Shown here in pieces: positions 2,431 to 28,727 of a stretch of 64,000 nt of DNA (its first letter is position 1; every line of letters starts with the position of its first letter). A model generated the notes under the pieces. It ran no database searches. It saw nothing but the letters and a program-made list of their open reading frames with translations, and was not told where the DNA came from. The position numbers were made by a program, and so were the translations under genes. Source of the DNA: Opitutaceae bacterium (GTDB lineage Bacteria > Verrucomicrobiota > Verrucomicrobiia > Opitutales > Opitutaceae); NCBI GenBank assembly GCA_028691845.1, contig JAQUYL010000012.1, forward strand, positions 1 to 64,000, given 5' to 3'.

Positions 2431-4344
2431 TCAATAGGCGCGGCCCTCGTGCTTGTCATAGTAGTTCACGAACGCCTGGTTGACGACGCGATAACCACCG
2501 GGGGTCGGGTATTTGCCCGTGAAATACCAGTCACCGCTGTGCTGGGGCAGCGCCTGGTGCAGGTTCTCGATCTGCTGGAATATGATTTGAATCTCCCCCT
2601 GCCACGGGATGCCTTTGGGCCTGACCAGATCCGCAATCTTGGTCGCGATCTCCTCGGCAGTGAACGGTTCGTAAATTTTGCGGGCATGGTTGACGGGCGG
2701 GCTGGGCTTGCGGGCGAGTTCATCCCGACACAACCGGTAGACCTCATCGATCAGGTCGCTCTTGCCGCGCTCCTTCAGCAGTGAAATCGCCGCCTCGAAC
2801 GCGATGAATTTTCCGATCTCCGACATGTCGATCCCATAGCAATCGGGATAGCGAATCTGCGGCGCGGTCGAGACGATGATGATCCTCTTCGGATTCAGCC
2901 GGCTGAGAATGCGCAGGATGGAACGGCGCAGGGTGGTGCCGCGCACGATCGAATCGTCGATGCACACAAGGTTGTCGTCCGGTTCCACCACTCCGTAGGT
3001 GATGTCGTAGACGTGTGAGGCGAGTTCATTGCGCCATTTTTCCTGGCCGATAAACGTGCGCAGTTTGATGTCCTTGCTGACAAGCTTCTCACCGCGCGGC
3101 CAATTGTGCATGATCAGTTTGTCCACCAGCTCCTCGGTAAGCTGCCCGCGGGCGGCCGCGGCCAGGATGGAGGTCTTCACCTCGAGACGCCGTCGGCTGC
3201 GCAGGGCGCTCAACAAGCCGTAATAGGCTGTTTCCGACGTGTTCGGAATGTAACTGAAGATGCTGTGCTCGAGATCGTTATCGATGGCCGCAAGAATCTG
3301 GTCGGCGAGGCAGGCGCCGAGCGCCTTGCGCTCGCGGTAAATGTCCGGGCCATTGCCGCGCGAGAAGTAGATGCGTTCGAACGAGCATTGCGTCTTCGGC
3401 AGGGCAGCCCGGATGCGCACGGACCGGACCAGGCCGGACTTCTTGACGACAACCACATAGCCCGGCTCGACCTCGTGCACCTGCTCGGATTTCAGGTCAA
3501 ACACGGTGAGCAGCGGCGCGCGCTCCGAGGCAAAGGCCACCACTTCCTCATCTTCAAACCAGTGGCACGGACGGATTCCGGATGGATCGCGCACCACGAA
3601 GGCGTCGCCATTGCCGATGAGTCCGGCCAACGTGTACCCGCCGTCCCAGTTTATCGCAGCCTCATGCACCACCTTCGCCGGATCAAGACCCTCGCTGATC
3701 CGCTGTGAGATCTCGGCCCCCGGCAGGTGAAGGGCACGCAGTTCACGGTAGAGCGACTCGTGTTGCTCGTCGAGGCAGAAGCCTATTTGCTCAAGGAGTG
3801 CCTGGGTGTCGGCGGAGAAGATCGGGTGCTGGCCCATCGCGATGAGGCTGTCGTTCAGCTCCATCGTGTTGGTCATGTTGAAATTCCCCGCCAGCATCAG
3901 ATTGCGTGTCGGCCACGGGCTGCGGCGAAAAAACGGATGACAGGCACTCAGACTATACCCGCCCGACGTACCGTAGCGCAGATGTCCAAGATAAAGCTCT
4001 CCGCAAAAATCAAAGTGCTTCTTAACCGTGTCGGGAAACTCGGGATGGATGTCTCCCGCGGACATCTTGACGGAATACTGGGCGAGCAGGGCCTTGAAGA
4101 TGCGGTCGAGCGGGCTGGATTTTATCTCCCGCTCGCGAAACATGTAGGGTTCGCCCGGCGGCACGTCGAATTTAACACAAGCCACGCCCGCACCATCTTG
4201 GCCGCGGTTGTGCTGTTTCTCCATGAGGAGAAAAAGCTGGGAGAAACCCCACAACGGCGTGCCGTATTTTTCCTGATAGTAAGCTAGCGGCTTCTTGAGC
4301 CGCACAAGCGCGATCCCGCATTCGTGGGTAAGAGTTTCACTCAT
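2431..4344 (-). CDS. purF: amidophosphoribosyltransferase, long form
   Basis: PurF makes the first committed step of purine synthesis: glutamine plus PRPP to phosphoribosylamine. The N-terminal glutaminase (class II, Ntn-type) domain has its nucleophile at Cys9 after a short propeptide (MSETLTHE|CGI). The phosphoribosyltransferase domain shows the PRPP loop CIDDSIVRGTT near residue 460. At 637 residues it is clearly longer than the roughly 500-residue E. coli type and resembles the longer versions seen in Bacteroidetes and relatives; the extra length includes a C-terminal stretch after about residue 500. It is the first gene of a purF-purM pair and is divergent from purL. Confidence 0.93.
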   Translation of the reverse strand: MSETLTHECGIALVRLKKPLAYYQEKYGTPLWGFSQLFLLMEKQHNRGQDGAGVACVKFDVPPGEPYMFREREIKSSPLDRIFKALLAQYSVKMSAGDIHPEFPDTVKKHFDFCGELYLGHLRYGTSGGYSLSACHPFFRRSPWPTRNLMLAGNFNMTNTMELNDSLIAMGQHPIFSADTQALLEQIGFCLDEQHESLYRELRALHLPGAEISQRISEGLDPAKVVHEAAINWDGGYTLAGLIGNGDAFVVRDPSGIRPCHWFEDEEVVAFASERAPLLTVFDLKSEQVHEVEPGYVVVVKKSGLVRSVRIRAALPKTQCSFERIYFSRGNGPDIYRERKALGACLADQILAAIDNDLEHSIFSYIPNTSETAYYGLLSALRSRRRLEVKTSILAAAARGQLTEELVDKLIMHNWPRGEKLVSKDIKLRTFIGQEKWRNELASHVYDITYGVVEPDDNLVCIDDSIVRGTTLRRSILRILSRLNPKRIIIVSTAPQIRYPDCYGIDMSEIGKFIAFEAAISLLKERGKSDLIDEVYRLCRDELARKPSPPVNHARKIYEPFTAEEIATKIADLVRPKGIPWQGEIQIIFQQIENLHQALPQHSGDWYFTGKYPTPGGYRVVNQAFVNYYDKHEGRAY

Positions 4345-25799: not shown

Positions 25800-26834
25800 T
25801 CAGGAGGTGGGGACAGTCTTGATCGTTTTGATAATGCGGCCAGCCACGAGGTACGGATCGGCCGCGGAATTCGGCCGACGATCCTCCAAGTAGCCCTTGT
25901 AGCCGTCCTTGACGAATTTGACCGGCATGCGGACTGAGGCGCCACGATCCGAAAGGCCGTAAGTAAATTTATCGATGGACTGCGTCTCGTGCAAACCTGT
26001 GAGACGGAGATGATTGTCCGGCCCATACACGGCGATGTGTTCGTCGCGATACTTGTTGAAGGCAGCCATGAGCTTGTCGAAGTAGGCCTTGCCCCCGACT
26101 TCGCGCATGAACTTCGTGGAAAAATTCGAGTGCATGCCGGAGCCGTTCCAATCGAGCAACCGTCCCCATTCGCCGCGTACCGGTTTGCAGTGCAATTCGA
26201 CGTCGACGCCGAGACTTTCGCAGAGACGGGCTAGAATATAGCGGGCGACCCAGAGCTGATCGGCCGCCGCCTTGGCGCTCTTGCCAAAAATCTGGTATTC
26301 CCACTGTCCTTTCGCGACTTCGGCGTTGACTCCTTCGATGTTGATGCCGGCGGCCAGGCAGATGTCGATGTGCTCCTCGACAATCTTGCGGGCAAGGGAA
26401 CCGATATACTTGTAGCCGACAGCCGTATAGTAGGGCCCCTGCGGCGCCGGATAGCCGTCGATCGGGAAACCAAGCGGCCGGCCGTCCTTGTAGAGGAAAA
26501 ATTCCTGTTCAAAGCCGAACCATGCGTCGGGATCGTCGTCGATGGTGGCGCGGGTGTTCGACGGATGTGGCTCTCCGCTGGGGAGCAGCACCTCGCACAT
26601 GACAAGGAAGCCGTTGGTTCGCGTGCAATCCGGATAGATTGCGACCGGCTTCAACAGGCAGTCGGAGCTCTTGCCATCCGCTTGCTCCGTGGAGCTGCCG
26701 TCAAAGCCCCAGCCATGAAGATCGGCGAGTTGCAGCTTGGCTGGGTCCCCGTCGATGATCTTGGTCTTGCTGCGCAAGTTGGCGAGCGGCGTGTAGCCGT
26801 CGAGCCAGATGTATTCGAGTTTGAGTTTGGCCAT
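25800..26834 (-). CDS. glnA: glutamine synthetase, type II
   Basis: This enzyme makes glutamine from glutamate and ammonia with ATP. At 344 residues it is the short eukaryote-like GSII form, not the roughly 470-residue GSI. Landmarks: the beta-grasp start KLKLEYIWLDGYTPLANLR, GWGFDGSSTEQADGKSSDC, the catalytic EQEFFLYKDGRPLGFP, the ATP/glutamate site NGSGMHSNFSTKFMRE, and SDRGASVRMP near the end. It is a one-gene unit: a terminator follows it and a sigma-54-like promoter lies about 90-107 bp before the start, in keeping with nitrogen control. Confidence 0.93.
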   Translation of the reverse strand: MAKLKLEYIWLDGYTPLANLRSKTKIIDGDPAKLQLADLHGWGFDGSSTEQADGKSSDCLLKPVAIYPDCTRTNGFLVMCEVLLPSGEPHPSNTRATIDDDPDAWFGFEQEFFLYKDGRPLGFPIDGYPAPQGPYYTAVGYKYIGSLARKIVEEHIDICLAAGINIEGVNAEVAKGQWEYQIFGKSAKAAADQLWVARYILARLCESLGVDVELHCKPVRGEWGRLLDWNGSGMHSNFSTKFMREVGGKAYFDKLMAAFNKYRDEHIAVYGPDNHLRLTGLHETQSIDKFTYGLSDRGASVRMPVKFVKDGYKGYLEDRRPNSAADPYLVAGRIIKTIKTVPTS

Positions 26835-26923
26835 GGAGATGAAAGTTCAATGTTTCTTGGTGAGTATTCTCACCGACCGCGAGATAGAATCTTAAATGGA
26901 GTCTGTAATAATACAGGCTCAAA

Positions 26924-26941
26924 TTGCACGTTACGTGCCAG
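26924..26941 (-). promoter_or_regulatory. sigma-54 (RpoN) promoter candidate for glnA
   Basis: The minus strand reads TGGCACG-TAAC-GTGCA. The invariant GG and GC pairs are exactly 10 bp apart, as required for -24/-12 promoters, and the -24 box is perfect; the -12 box has one mismatch (GTGC for TTGC). The predicted start is near 26914, about 80 nt upstream of glnA. The core is also palindromic (GCACGTTACGTGC), so a repressor site is the alternative reading. An 8-bp dyad with loop AATAAT lies at 26899-26920. Confidence 0.65.
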
Positions 26942-27062: not shown

Positions 27063-27491
27063 ATGCAAGAGGTAAAGGATACCGGCCGGGCGCTCGTCCG
27101 CATCACCTACGATGGCAAGGTGCACAAGACGTTCCGCGGACATAAGGCCGATCAGCGTTTCGCCAACGAGGTCCGGGTGCTCCGTCATCTGGAGGAGAAA
27201 GGCTGTAATTTCGTCCCCCGCCTCCTGCATGTCGACCCGAGCACACTCACTCTTGTTACCACCAATTGCGGCTCCCGTGTGGATCAACTGAACGAGGAAC
27301 GCCGGAAGGAACTTTATGACGAGCTCGAAAAATACGGGGTACGGCACCTCGACCCGTATATGCGCAACATCACCTACCGCATCAGCGACGGACGTTTCTG
27401 CATCATTGATTTTGAGTTCGCCACCCTCATCGACAATCCGCACCCCGACGAACCCGAGCCCCCGCCTCCCGATCCAACCCGGGCCGGTTGA
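27063..27491 (+). CDS. very small protein kinase-like protein
   Basis: At 142 residues this protein still shows the main landmarks of the protein kinase fold: Lys22 (VHKTFR) where the ATP lysine sits, Glu36 (FANEVRVL) in the helix C position, His95-Leu-Asp97 with Asn102 (HLDPYMRN) as catalytic loop, and Asp116-Phe-Glu118 as the DFG equivalent. The glycine loop is weak and nothing follows the DFE segment except a Pro-rich tail, so the C-lobe is cut to its minimum. This resembles RIO/Bud32-like or sugar kinase-like atypical members. It ends one base before the PP2C phosphatase gene, so the two are probably co-translated and act on the same target or on each other. The ATG at 27063 is used; an in-frame TTG lies 24 bp upstream. 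Confidence 0.65.
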   Translation: MQEVKDTGRALVRITYDGKVHKTFRGHKADQRFANEVRVLRHLEEKGCNFVPRLLHVDPSTLTLVTTNCGSRVDQLNEERRKELYDELEKYGVRHLDPYMRNITYRISDGRFCIIDFEFATLIDNPHPDEPEPPPPDPTRAG

Positions 27492-27492
27492 C

Positions 27493-28371
27493 ATGCCTGC
27501 CTCGCTTCCACCTGACCCTTCCTCCGCTGCCTCCGCGCCGTCCCTCCTCTGGTCGGGCATGACGCATTGCGGCCGCGTTCGGCCAAACAACGAAGACTCG
27601 TTCCTGGCGCTGACCTTCAGCGGGAGTGAAATCCGTTACCTCGGCAAGATCGGGGAGGCCACGTTTCAACACGGCGACTTCGTCTTCGCTGTGAGCGACG
27701 GCATGGGCGGCGCCAAATCCGGAGAATTTGCCAGCAAGATCACCGTCGAAAAAATCTCCCGGCTGCTCCCCCGCAGCTTTCATCTCTTGGCCCAGGGAAT
27801 GGGCGGAGACTATGCGGATGTGCTCGTCGAGTTGTTTGAAGCCGTCCACCGGGATCTAATCAAACTTGGCTGCAGCTACGAGGAATGCCGCGGCATGGGC
27901 ACGACGCTGAGTCTCTGCTGGTTCTCTCCCAATTGGATGCATTTCGCCCATGCGGGCGACAGCCGCATCTATTACCTGCCTCGCGACGGCGGCCTGCGCC
28001 AGCTTTCAGACGATCACACGCACGTCGGCTGGCTGCGCCGCCAGGGAAGGATCACCGAGCGTGAAGCACGCTCCCACCCCATGCGCAACAACCTGCATCT
28101 CTCGCTCGGAGCCGGCCACCAGTTTGTCGAGCCGCAGGTCGGAGCGGTCGGCTACGAACCGGGCGACCGGTTTCTCATCTGCTCCGACGGACTGATCGAC
28201 GGGCTCTGGGATCGCCACCTGGATGAATTCATCAGGCACCCCGAGCCGCCAAGCGATCGCCTGCCACCGGCCCAGCGGTTGGTGGAGGAGTCGCTCGAAC
28301 GTTCCGGCCGCGACAACACCACGGCGCTGGTGATCGAGTGCGTGTCCCCGGGCCCGGTCCCGGCCCCATGA
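27493..28371 (+). CDS. PP2C-family serine/threonine phosphatase
   Basis: This is a 292-residue cytoplasmic Mn/Mg-dependent protein phosphatase. Family motifs appear in order: THCGRVRPNNEDSF, FAVSDGMGGAKSGE (metal Asp), RGMGTTLSLCWF, HAGDSRIYYL, LLICSDGL-like FLICSDGLIDGL and RDNTTALVI with the final metal Asp. It starts 1 nt after the stop of the mini-kinase gene and ends overlapping the next gene by 4 nt (ATGA). The tight packing suggests a signalling unit with the kinase-like protein. Confidence 0.88.
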   Translation: MPASLPPDPSSAASAPSLLWSGMTHCGRVRPNNEDSFLALTFSGSEIRYLGKIGEATFQHGDFVFAVSDGMGGAKSGEFASKITVEKISRLLPRSFHLLAQGMGGDYADVLVELFEAVHRDLIKLGCSYEECRGMGTTLSLCWFSPNWMHFAHAGDSRIYYLPRDGGLRQLSDDHTHVGWLRRQGRITEREARSHPMRNNLHLSLGAGHQFVEPQVGAVGYEPGDRFLICSDGLIDGLWDRHLDEFIRHPEPPSDRLPPAQRLVEESLERSGRDNTTALVIECVSPGPVPAP

Positions 28372-28727
28372 CACGCGTCTTTGTTTATGGCACTCTCAAA
28401 CGTGGTGGCGGCAATCACGGTTTTCTGGCCCGGCAGCGATTTGTCGGCGAGGCGCGCACCCATCCCGGTTACGTGCTATATTCGCTCGGCGACTACCCGG
28501 GCATGGTGCAGGAAGCGACCGACCAGGTGGGCGTCACTGGCGAACTATGGGAGATCGACGACTCCGTCCTGCAACAACTCGATGAACTCGAGGGGGTTGC
28601 CGCCGGCCTCTTTCGGAGGATCACACTTACCCTGGCTCCACCACACGACGGTTCCACGGTCACTACTTATCTATATGCCCGCAATGTGGCCGGCCAAACT
28701 CGTATAGGTCCGAACTGGCATGAGTGA
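28368..28727 (+). CDS. gamma-glutamylcyclotransferase-like (AIG2) protein
   Basis: This 119-residue protein has the start VFVYGTLKRGGGNHGFL, the hallmark of the GGCT/AIG2 fold, where YGTL forms the substrate loop. A glutamate in LDELEG is in the position of the catalytic acid. Such enzymes cleave gamma-glutamyl amines or amino acids to 5-oxoproline; the exact substrate is unknown. The start ATG at 28368 overlaps the phosphatase stop (ATGA), so translation is coupled. It converges on dnaX. Confidence 0.82.
   Translation: MTRVFVYGTLKRGGGNHGFLARQRFVGEARTHPGYVLYSLGDYPGMVQEATDQVGVTGELWEIDDSVLQQLDELEGVAAGLFRRITLTLAPPHDGSTVTTYLYARNVAGQTRIGPNWHE

Follow-up and report, generated by a model that had tools for sequence, protein, structure and literature searches.

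The locus considered here raises the question of what a kinase-like protein of only 142 residues, encoded directly ahead of a protein phosphatase, may act upon. The window, i.e. the whole 64,000-nucleotide stretch of Opitutaceae DNA that was analysed, carries on its forward strand the mini-kinase gene (27063..27491), a gene for a PP2C-type protein phosphatase of 292 aa (27493..28371), and a gene for a GGACT / AIG2-like (YtfP-type) gamma-glutamylcyclotransferase-family protein of 119 aa (28368..28727), here treated as an optional partner. An initial annotation of this DNA had described these three as one coupled unit, and the coordinates agree with that layout: the mini-kinase stop codon TGA occupies 27489-27491, a single base precedes the PP2C ATG at 27493, and the end of the PP2C gene at 28371 overlaps the GGACT ATG at 28368 (ATGA). 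A partner absent from that annotation lies on the reverse strand, where glnII (25800..26834), encoding a GSII-type (eukaryotic-type) glutamine synthetase of 344 aa, is divergent from the mini-kinase gene with a spacing of 228 bases and constitutes the stable third member of the set. Functional coupling of the kinase, the PP2C and a particular GlnII clade is well supported and is the strongest statement that the analysis sustains, and coupling to GlnII as such is considered very probable.

In the mini-kinase, an N-lobe and hinge are followed by a short helix E, the catalytic loop and a DFE motif, and the alpha-F to alpha-I C-lobe is lacking. The residues highlighted in the initial annotation were all found, namely the ATP lysine (Lys22), the helix-C glutamate (Glu36), the HLD loop with its asparagine (H95-L-D97 with Asn102) and the DFE at residues 116-118. 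In an alignment of 113 rows (the window protein and 112 distinct domain sequences), K5, K22, R32, E36, C48, P52, G70, H95, D97, R101, N102, D116, and E118 were invariant, a set that includes each of the K/E/HxD/N/D positions. The catalytic loop H95-x-D97-x4-N102 is encoded at 27345..27368, and the metal-binding DFE, in which F117 was conserved in 112/113 rows, at 27408..27416. Loss of most of the C-lobe proved to be general, with only 10-35 residues following the DFE in all 74 of the unfused copies parsed (from the best 80 of at least 545 loci). Besides the catalytic positions, Cys48 is invariant (113/113) and Cys69 nearly so (109/113), and a role of this pair in redox sensing is possible.

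Ten key residues of the protein-kinase-like (PKL) superfamily are listed in an excerpt of PMC1821047, and our positional mapping recovered seven of them in the mini-kinase: K72, E91, P104, H164, D166, N171, and D184 correspond to K22, E36, P52, H95, D97, N102, and D116, each in 113/113 rows. The counterpart of G52 is unclear (GxGxxG was not seen in the alignment, and position 7 is T in 97/113 and G in 14/113 rows), H158 of helix E is absent (position 89 is E in 104/113 and H in 1/113 rows), and the post-DFG region of ~100 residues that holds D220 on helix F is replaced by the 10-35 residues beyond the DFE. Since nine of the ten key residues are changed or lost in some family according to the same excerpt, the lack of this post-DFG region weakens the description of a complete PKL kinase, not that of a kinase fold.

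Among solved structures, relatives of the protein were revealed by fold comparison only. Against solved structures, nothing significant was returned by a single-sequence search (best E 0.24, sucrose synthase) or by a profile search (best E 0.067, CK2; Ark1 at 0.5). The Pfam APH model (PF01636) was matched at 24.8 bits against a cut-off of 23.2, with the best stretch covering residues 77-124 only, and 30/30 members of alignment A1 matched it at E<=0.01. The window protein fell below the cut-offs of Kdo/WaaP (PF06293; 19.0 vs 21.3 bits) and of the Bud32 NCBIfam NF011460 (13.1 vs 199 bits), and no RIO match was obtained at E<=1 in the Pfam search. Structure prediction, which the initial annotation had named as a check, yielded a kinase fold: the AlphaFold model, computed from 30 aligned homologues, was confident (pLDDT 88.8, pTM 0.80). 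Helix C and the strands of the N-lobe come first in it, then a short helix E and the catalytic loop; two strands lead to the DFE, beyond which the tail is modelled with low confidence. The top Foldseek match in the PDB was the archaeal RNA kinase Ark1 (171 residues, E 1.2e-6), with RIO2, Bud32/PRPK, and CK2 next in rank; 50/50 of the Foldseek PDB matches listed were kinase or kinase-like domains, as were the 50 matches listed by a second structural aligner (Z 12.6 to 10.5). The predicted model possesses the PKL kinase fold and, judging from residue conservation and this model, the mini-kinase probably has kinase activity. The idea that it might be the smallest kinase was dropped, because the fold is also matched by viral models, several with 157-183 residues and one with 117.

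The rank of Ark1, the DFE motif that the related TkArkI also has, and the weak APH match raise the alternative that the protein phosphorylates a small molecule, like aminoglycoside or choline kinases, or RNA, like archaeal Ark1, and that the PP2C is an unrelated neighbour. According to an excerpt of PMC9095486, TkArkI combines the DFE with an HGQ catalytic motif and C-terminal helices bearing YKR, and acts on tRNA. The HxD of the mini-kinase differs from this HGQ, its tail leaves no room for the YKR helices, and repeated fusion to a protein phosphatase would be hard to account for under such a function, which we regard as quite improbable.

The window PP2C matches the Pfam PP2C_2 model at 67.4 bits (cut-off 24 bits, E 1.7e-18), and R30, N33, D35, D69, G70, D156, D232, and D274, which we take to belong to the metal site, are each conserved in at least 98.5% of 107 rows (the window protein and those unfused copies that matched at E<=1e-60). 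Phosphatase activity is likely on the basis of this model match and the conserved metal-site residues. The Stp1/IreP equivalog cut-off (NF033484) was missed at 169.4 vs 230 bits, and PstP and 2j82-type PP2Cs are among its nearest solved relatives. The window GGACT protein matches PF06094 at 84.5 bits (cut-off 22.8, E 1.1e-23). Downstream GGACT genes were found at 55/80 loci by tblastn and at 53/80 by a stricter cut (best 80 of at least 545 loci), mostly in Opitutaceae or Opitutae, and none was detected at 18 more distant loci (L143-L160). GGACT is a frequent yet optional addition that perhaps handles a gamma-glutamyl product, and the link to gamma-glutamyl compounds put forward in the initial annotation is accordingly weaker.

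Gene order was compared to establish which partners are retained. Among the loci of the window's own genome and its relatives, the PP2C is the next gene after the kinase in 30/30, and glnII lies upstream of the kinase in 29/30, divergently in 28 and on the same strand in one (L018). The named loci, which are the best 80 of at least 545 confirmed stretches and are biased to close relatives, have the PP2C after the kinase in 79/80 (the remaining contig ends there) and glnII near the kinase in 75/80, with 74 divergent. In a sample of 387 genomes drawn evenly from the phylum, own genome included, GlnII is located <=3 kb from the kinase in 65/79 kinase copies, in 58 divergently upstream and in 7 downstream with the same orientation. 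The 14/79 unlinked copies comprise six in which kinase and PP2C remain together (G337, G253, G176, G163, G277, and G171), seven in which the PP2C remains beside GlnII (G221, G294, G311, G320, G349, G369, and G361), and one (G358) in which neither pair was seen. Three gene orders of the kinase/PP2C/GlnII triad were found. At L144 and L148 (G294 and G349), the kinase gene stands away from GlnII and directly 3' of an MgtE-like gene, as we presume it to be. Plasmid and phage searches for a mobile-element origin gave no match, and a single contig (L195) came up in IMG/VR.

In 14 distinct cases, kinase and PP2C are encoded as a single frame, which at L087 extends into a kinase-PP2C-GGACT triple fusion of 522 residues. 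At least six fusion or fission changes between kinase and PP2C were implied by the kinase tree, a quick tree from few columns. Each of the two domains of one natural fusion (L085), taken by itself, is predicted to fold well (pLDDT 91.3, pTM 0.79). Genome G393 has two kinase-PP2C fusions, each with its own GlnII, one divergent and one upstream; the second GlnII (L154) is strongly diverged, with 48% identity to that of the window. The portion of the originally claimed switch that stands is the compact kinase/phosphatase unit, borne out by the predicted fold, the invariant catalytic residues, the PP2C metal-site residues and the recurrent fusions.

Recurrent fusion to the PP2C would also be in keeping with a mini-kinase that is an ATP-binding adaptor, sensing ATP and directing or tuning the PP2C or GlnII, with phosphorylation left to a different cellular kinase. 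The same can be said of a model in which C-lobe, activation segment and peptide-binding platform are all missing, and of the 10-35-residue tail in 74/74 parsed unfused copies (best 80 of at least 545 loci). ATP sensing alone, however, would not need N102, D116, and D97, the catalytic base, to be all invariant (113/113), and in seven genomes the PP2C stays beside GlnII although the kinase gene has another location. An adaptor role is considered unlikely, and catalysis by the mini-kinase itself is the reading retained below.

Co-occurrence was assessed in the 387-genome phylum sample, in which a clear kinase match was E 5.8e-43 or better (next match 2.9e-11) and a strong GlnII match E 7e-86 or better (next match 1.1e-10), the latter threshold being set because the GlnII model weakly matches other GS types (13/14 control genomes). 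The kinase was present in 78/387 genomes and GlnII in 86/387, and all 78 kinase-positive genomes contained GlnII (Fisher p 4e-73, a value in which shared ancestry is ignored). Weaker kinase matches in G249 and G386 raise the count to 80/387; they are non-orthologues and are not among the 78, the former (L141) being a methyltransferase and a kinase-like domain in one frame and the latter (L142) Kdo/Bud32-like. The frame at L141 (positions 2633-4000) is reminiscent of WbdD, and the fold comparison of the mini-kinase likewise returned a WbdD structure. GlnII without the kinase occurred in 8/387 genomes, all beyond the window's class, and no PP2C of the kinase-linked type was found in the stretches fetched around the GlnII of these eight (L161-L168).

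Similar values were observed closer to the window. The 57 near genomes, which include its own and partly overlap the phylum sample, contained the kinase in 37/57 and GlnII in 37/37 of those, with one genome of the window's class (G037) carrying GlnII alone. The survey of relatives that the initial annotation had called for found the gene set present, and the kinase reading frame does not reflect chance, because 37/57 genomes have a homologue and the PP2C is next in 30/30 loci. GlnII was present in 8/8 genomes from which named loci had come, including five that have no glnII near the kinase. Beyond the phylum, the kinase was found in G426 and L098, apparently Planctomycetaceae. In the class of G426 (inferred to be Planctomycetia; 59 genomes centred on G426, which was picked for having the kinase), the kinase was present in 2/59 genomes and strong GlnII in 8/59, both kinase-positive genomes being among these eight and 6/8 GlnII-bearing genomes being without the kinase. 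The only independent case in that class, G469, has a kinase-PP2C fusion beside GlnII. The kinase/PP2C/GSII set is in summary a feature of Verrucomicrobia and apparently a few planctomycetes.

Nearly all kinase matches fall in one class of one phylum and many of the loci are closely related, as would be expected if three chromosomal neighbours had been retained by descent and shared no function. This explanation is considered highly improbable: the triad exists in three gene orders, includes fusions, and is kept despite broken linkage; several distinct lineages within the class lack both kinase and GlnII (e.g. G002, G033, genus g62, G179, and genus g74); and the rare copies outside the class also occur with GlnII. 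Functional coupling remains the preferred interpretation, and the travelling of the set with one GSII type suggests an unrecognised on/off switch of nitrogen assimilation.

The identity of the glutamine synthetase was examined by homology. All 16 solved sequences listed for the window GlnII were glutamine synthetases, the best being 4bax (E 3e-92), identified as S. coelicolor GlnII in an excerpt of PMC9397018. The catalytic and beta-grasp domains (PF00120 and PF03951) exceeded their cut-offs. NCBIfam NF041605 was matched at 370.3 bits (E 8e-111), short of its equivalog cut-off of 500 bits, and as that cut-off was reached in 0/387 genomes the gene is named GSII-type and not as an NF041605 equivalog. 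It is the only GS found in the window's genome (a single PF00120 match). A sigma-54-like -24/-12 promoter element is oriented towards glnII on the reverse strand at 26925..26941, 90 bases upstream of the start codon, with 12/13 positions of the consensus that we assumed for scoring. Towards glnII, such an element reached at least 10/13 positions in 73/74 divergent intergenic regions, for which mononucleotide shuffles expect ~6; towards the kinase, 11/74 reached 10/13 and none scored higher. On sequence grounds, this element fits nitrogen control of glnII. The glnII leader also holds a perfect palindrome, GGTGAG-TATT-CTCACC (26859-26874), a possible operator.

To place the kinase-associated GlnII among its relatives, a tree of 76 rows was generated (25 random named loci and chosen distant ones, with SH-aLRT support only). 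The 60 kinase-associated GlnII formed one clade with a support of 100, within which two kinase-negative GlnII were nested, from G342 (L168) and G451 (L213), where the kinase was not detected. The 13 other kinase-negative GlnII, including that of G037, lay outside this clade, as did the G393 paralogue, on a very long branch. With the 60 in one clade and the kinase-negative GlnII mostly outside it, the kinase/PP2C pair belongs to one particular GlnII clade, and GlnII is not dependent on the pair everywhere. G451 and G342 are natural cases of a GlnII of the kinase-associated clade without the kinase. A search for phosphosites compared the GlnII of 114 kinase-positive with 8 kinase-negative rows, 7 of them contrasted and L168 shown apart; five columns differed (T240, Y251, Y315, N322, and R333), in a contrast confounded by the two sets being largely different GlnII clades, and no kinase-specific phosphosite stood out in the 114 vs 7 rows.

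Other nitrogen-control components were compared in 60 hand-picked genomes, 44 kinase-positive and 16 kinase-negative. GSI-like sequences (PF00120 at E 3e-133 or better, the type being assigned by us) and strong GlnE matches (E 6e-44 or better) were found in the identical 8/60 genomes, seven of which are kinase-negative, and G055 has GSI-like, GlnE and kinase all together. In the nine remaining kinase-negative genomes, the GS matches lie in frames of 714-790 residues, the size of GSIII. A single GS match was present in 31/44 kinase-positive genomes, that of the window included, and more than one in 13/44. Weak GlnE matches in kinase-positive genomes, again including the window's own (E 4e-4 to 7e-11, frames mostly of ~930-1010 residues), are probably GlnD. 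The GlnE domain PF03710 gave no match at E<=1 in the kinase, PP2C or GGACT proteins.

The pair might instead act on another nitrogen regulator, chiefly PII (GlnB/GlnK), with GlnII controlled only indirectly. The cyanobacterial-type PP2Cs 2j82/2xzv, structures presumably linked to PII, are among the best solved matches of the window PP2C. In an excerpt of PMC10651672, the PP2C PphA dephosphorylates cyanobacterial PII, for which the kinase was long elusive, with SpkB as a candidate. PII was detected in 57/60 of the hand-picked genomes, and its presence in 44/44 kinase-positive genomes agrees with such a target; it is also present in 13/16 kinase-negative genomes, however, and follows the kinase only loosely, unlike GlnII. 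In G364 (L183), GlnII, kinase, PP2C and a convergent PII gene just past the PP2C lie in one stretch, a neighbourhood in keeping with action on PII. This target is considered rather improbable.

With GlnII as the favoured partner, we infer the following scheme. The mini-kinase would bind ATP through its ordinary N-lobe and catalytic loop and catalyse phosphorylation; having no C-lobe with which to bind a substrate, it would reach its target via a dedicated docking partner, for which the large GlnII ring, itself then the direct substrate, is the simplest candidate. Phosphorylation would alter GlnII activity or assembly according to the nitrogen or energy state sensed, and the PP2C, acting on the same site, would reverse it, such that the pair would play for GSII the part that adenylylation by GlnE plays for GSI. 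We consider there to be an even chance that mini-kinase and PP2C form a reversible phosphorylation switch on GlnII or its direct control, and a chance slightly below even that GlnII is the direct substrate. The full reading, in which an active half-size kinase (~125 conserved residues, no C-lobe) docks on and phosphorylates GSII and the PP2C reverses this, is offered tentatively. Counting against it are the GlnII without kinase in 8/387 phylum genomes, in G037 and in 6/8 of the class of G426, as well as a mini-kinase without the D220 region, H158, or a clear G52.

Ammonia enters metabolism through glutamine synthetase, and GlnE is well established as a covalent regulator of GSI. Among the matches listed from openly licensed PubMed Central papers, no description of the kinase/PP2C/GlnII set was found (the initial annotation had not recognised its three-gene combination from a named system either), and no other dedicated modifying enzyme for bacterial GSII was found among the matches listed in the literature searched. 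A review (PMC10704036, in excerpt) states that adenylylation does not act on GSII in S. coelicolor, and an excerpt of PMC12316311 contains no mention of the glnA of Opitutia. The tight tracking of one GSII clade makes the question of GSII modification testable with three small genes. If the scheme is true, it would represent a new covalent control of glutamine synthetase, the GSII counterpart of GlnE/GSI, and would imply that a docking surface on the substrate can make up for the missing post-DFG lobe of a working kinase, which would challenge the definition of a minimal kinase.

Comparison with known systems reveals partial likenesses. RIO, Bud32/PRPK and KdoK proteins have the core fold and the catalytic loop in common with the mini-kinase, and among the structural matches RIO2 and Bud32/PRPK rank next after Ark1; these proteins retain a helical C-lobe, and the mini-kinase lies below the curated Kdo and Bud32 cut-offs and is unmatched by RIO at E<=1. 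ArkI/Ark1 (COG2112, AQ578 family) is likewise a very small kinase fold with DFE instead of DFG, whereas TkArkI has HGQ, a C-terminal YKR lobe and a tRNA substrate, and the mini-kinase has HxD in 113/113 rows and ends 10-35 residues past the DFE. The present PP2C shares the fold family and conserved metal-site residues with Stp1/IreP and PstP, but scores 169 against the 230-bit cut-off and is partnered by a mini-kinase, not a full-length Ser/Thr kinase. PphA-type PP2Cs offer a parallel in nitrogen control and in related solved structures, although their target is PII and the excerpt of PMC10651672 mentions no coupled mini-kinase, whereas the coupling here is to GlnII. The GlnE/GSI system is similar in that a dedicated modifying enzyme co-occurs with one GS type; GlnE adds AMP to GSI (PMC9397018, in excerpt), while the present set unites a kinase fold and a PP2C with GSII, so that the parallel would be one of functional analogy and not of homology.
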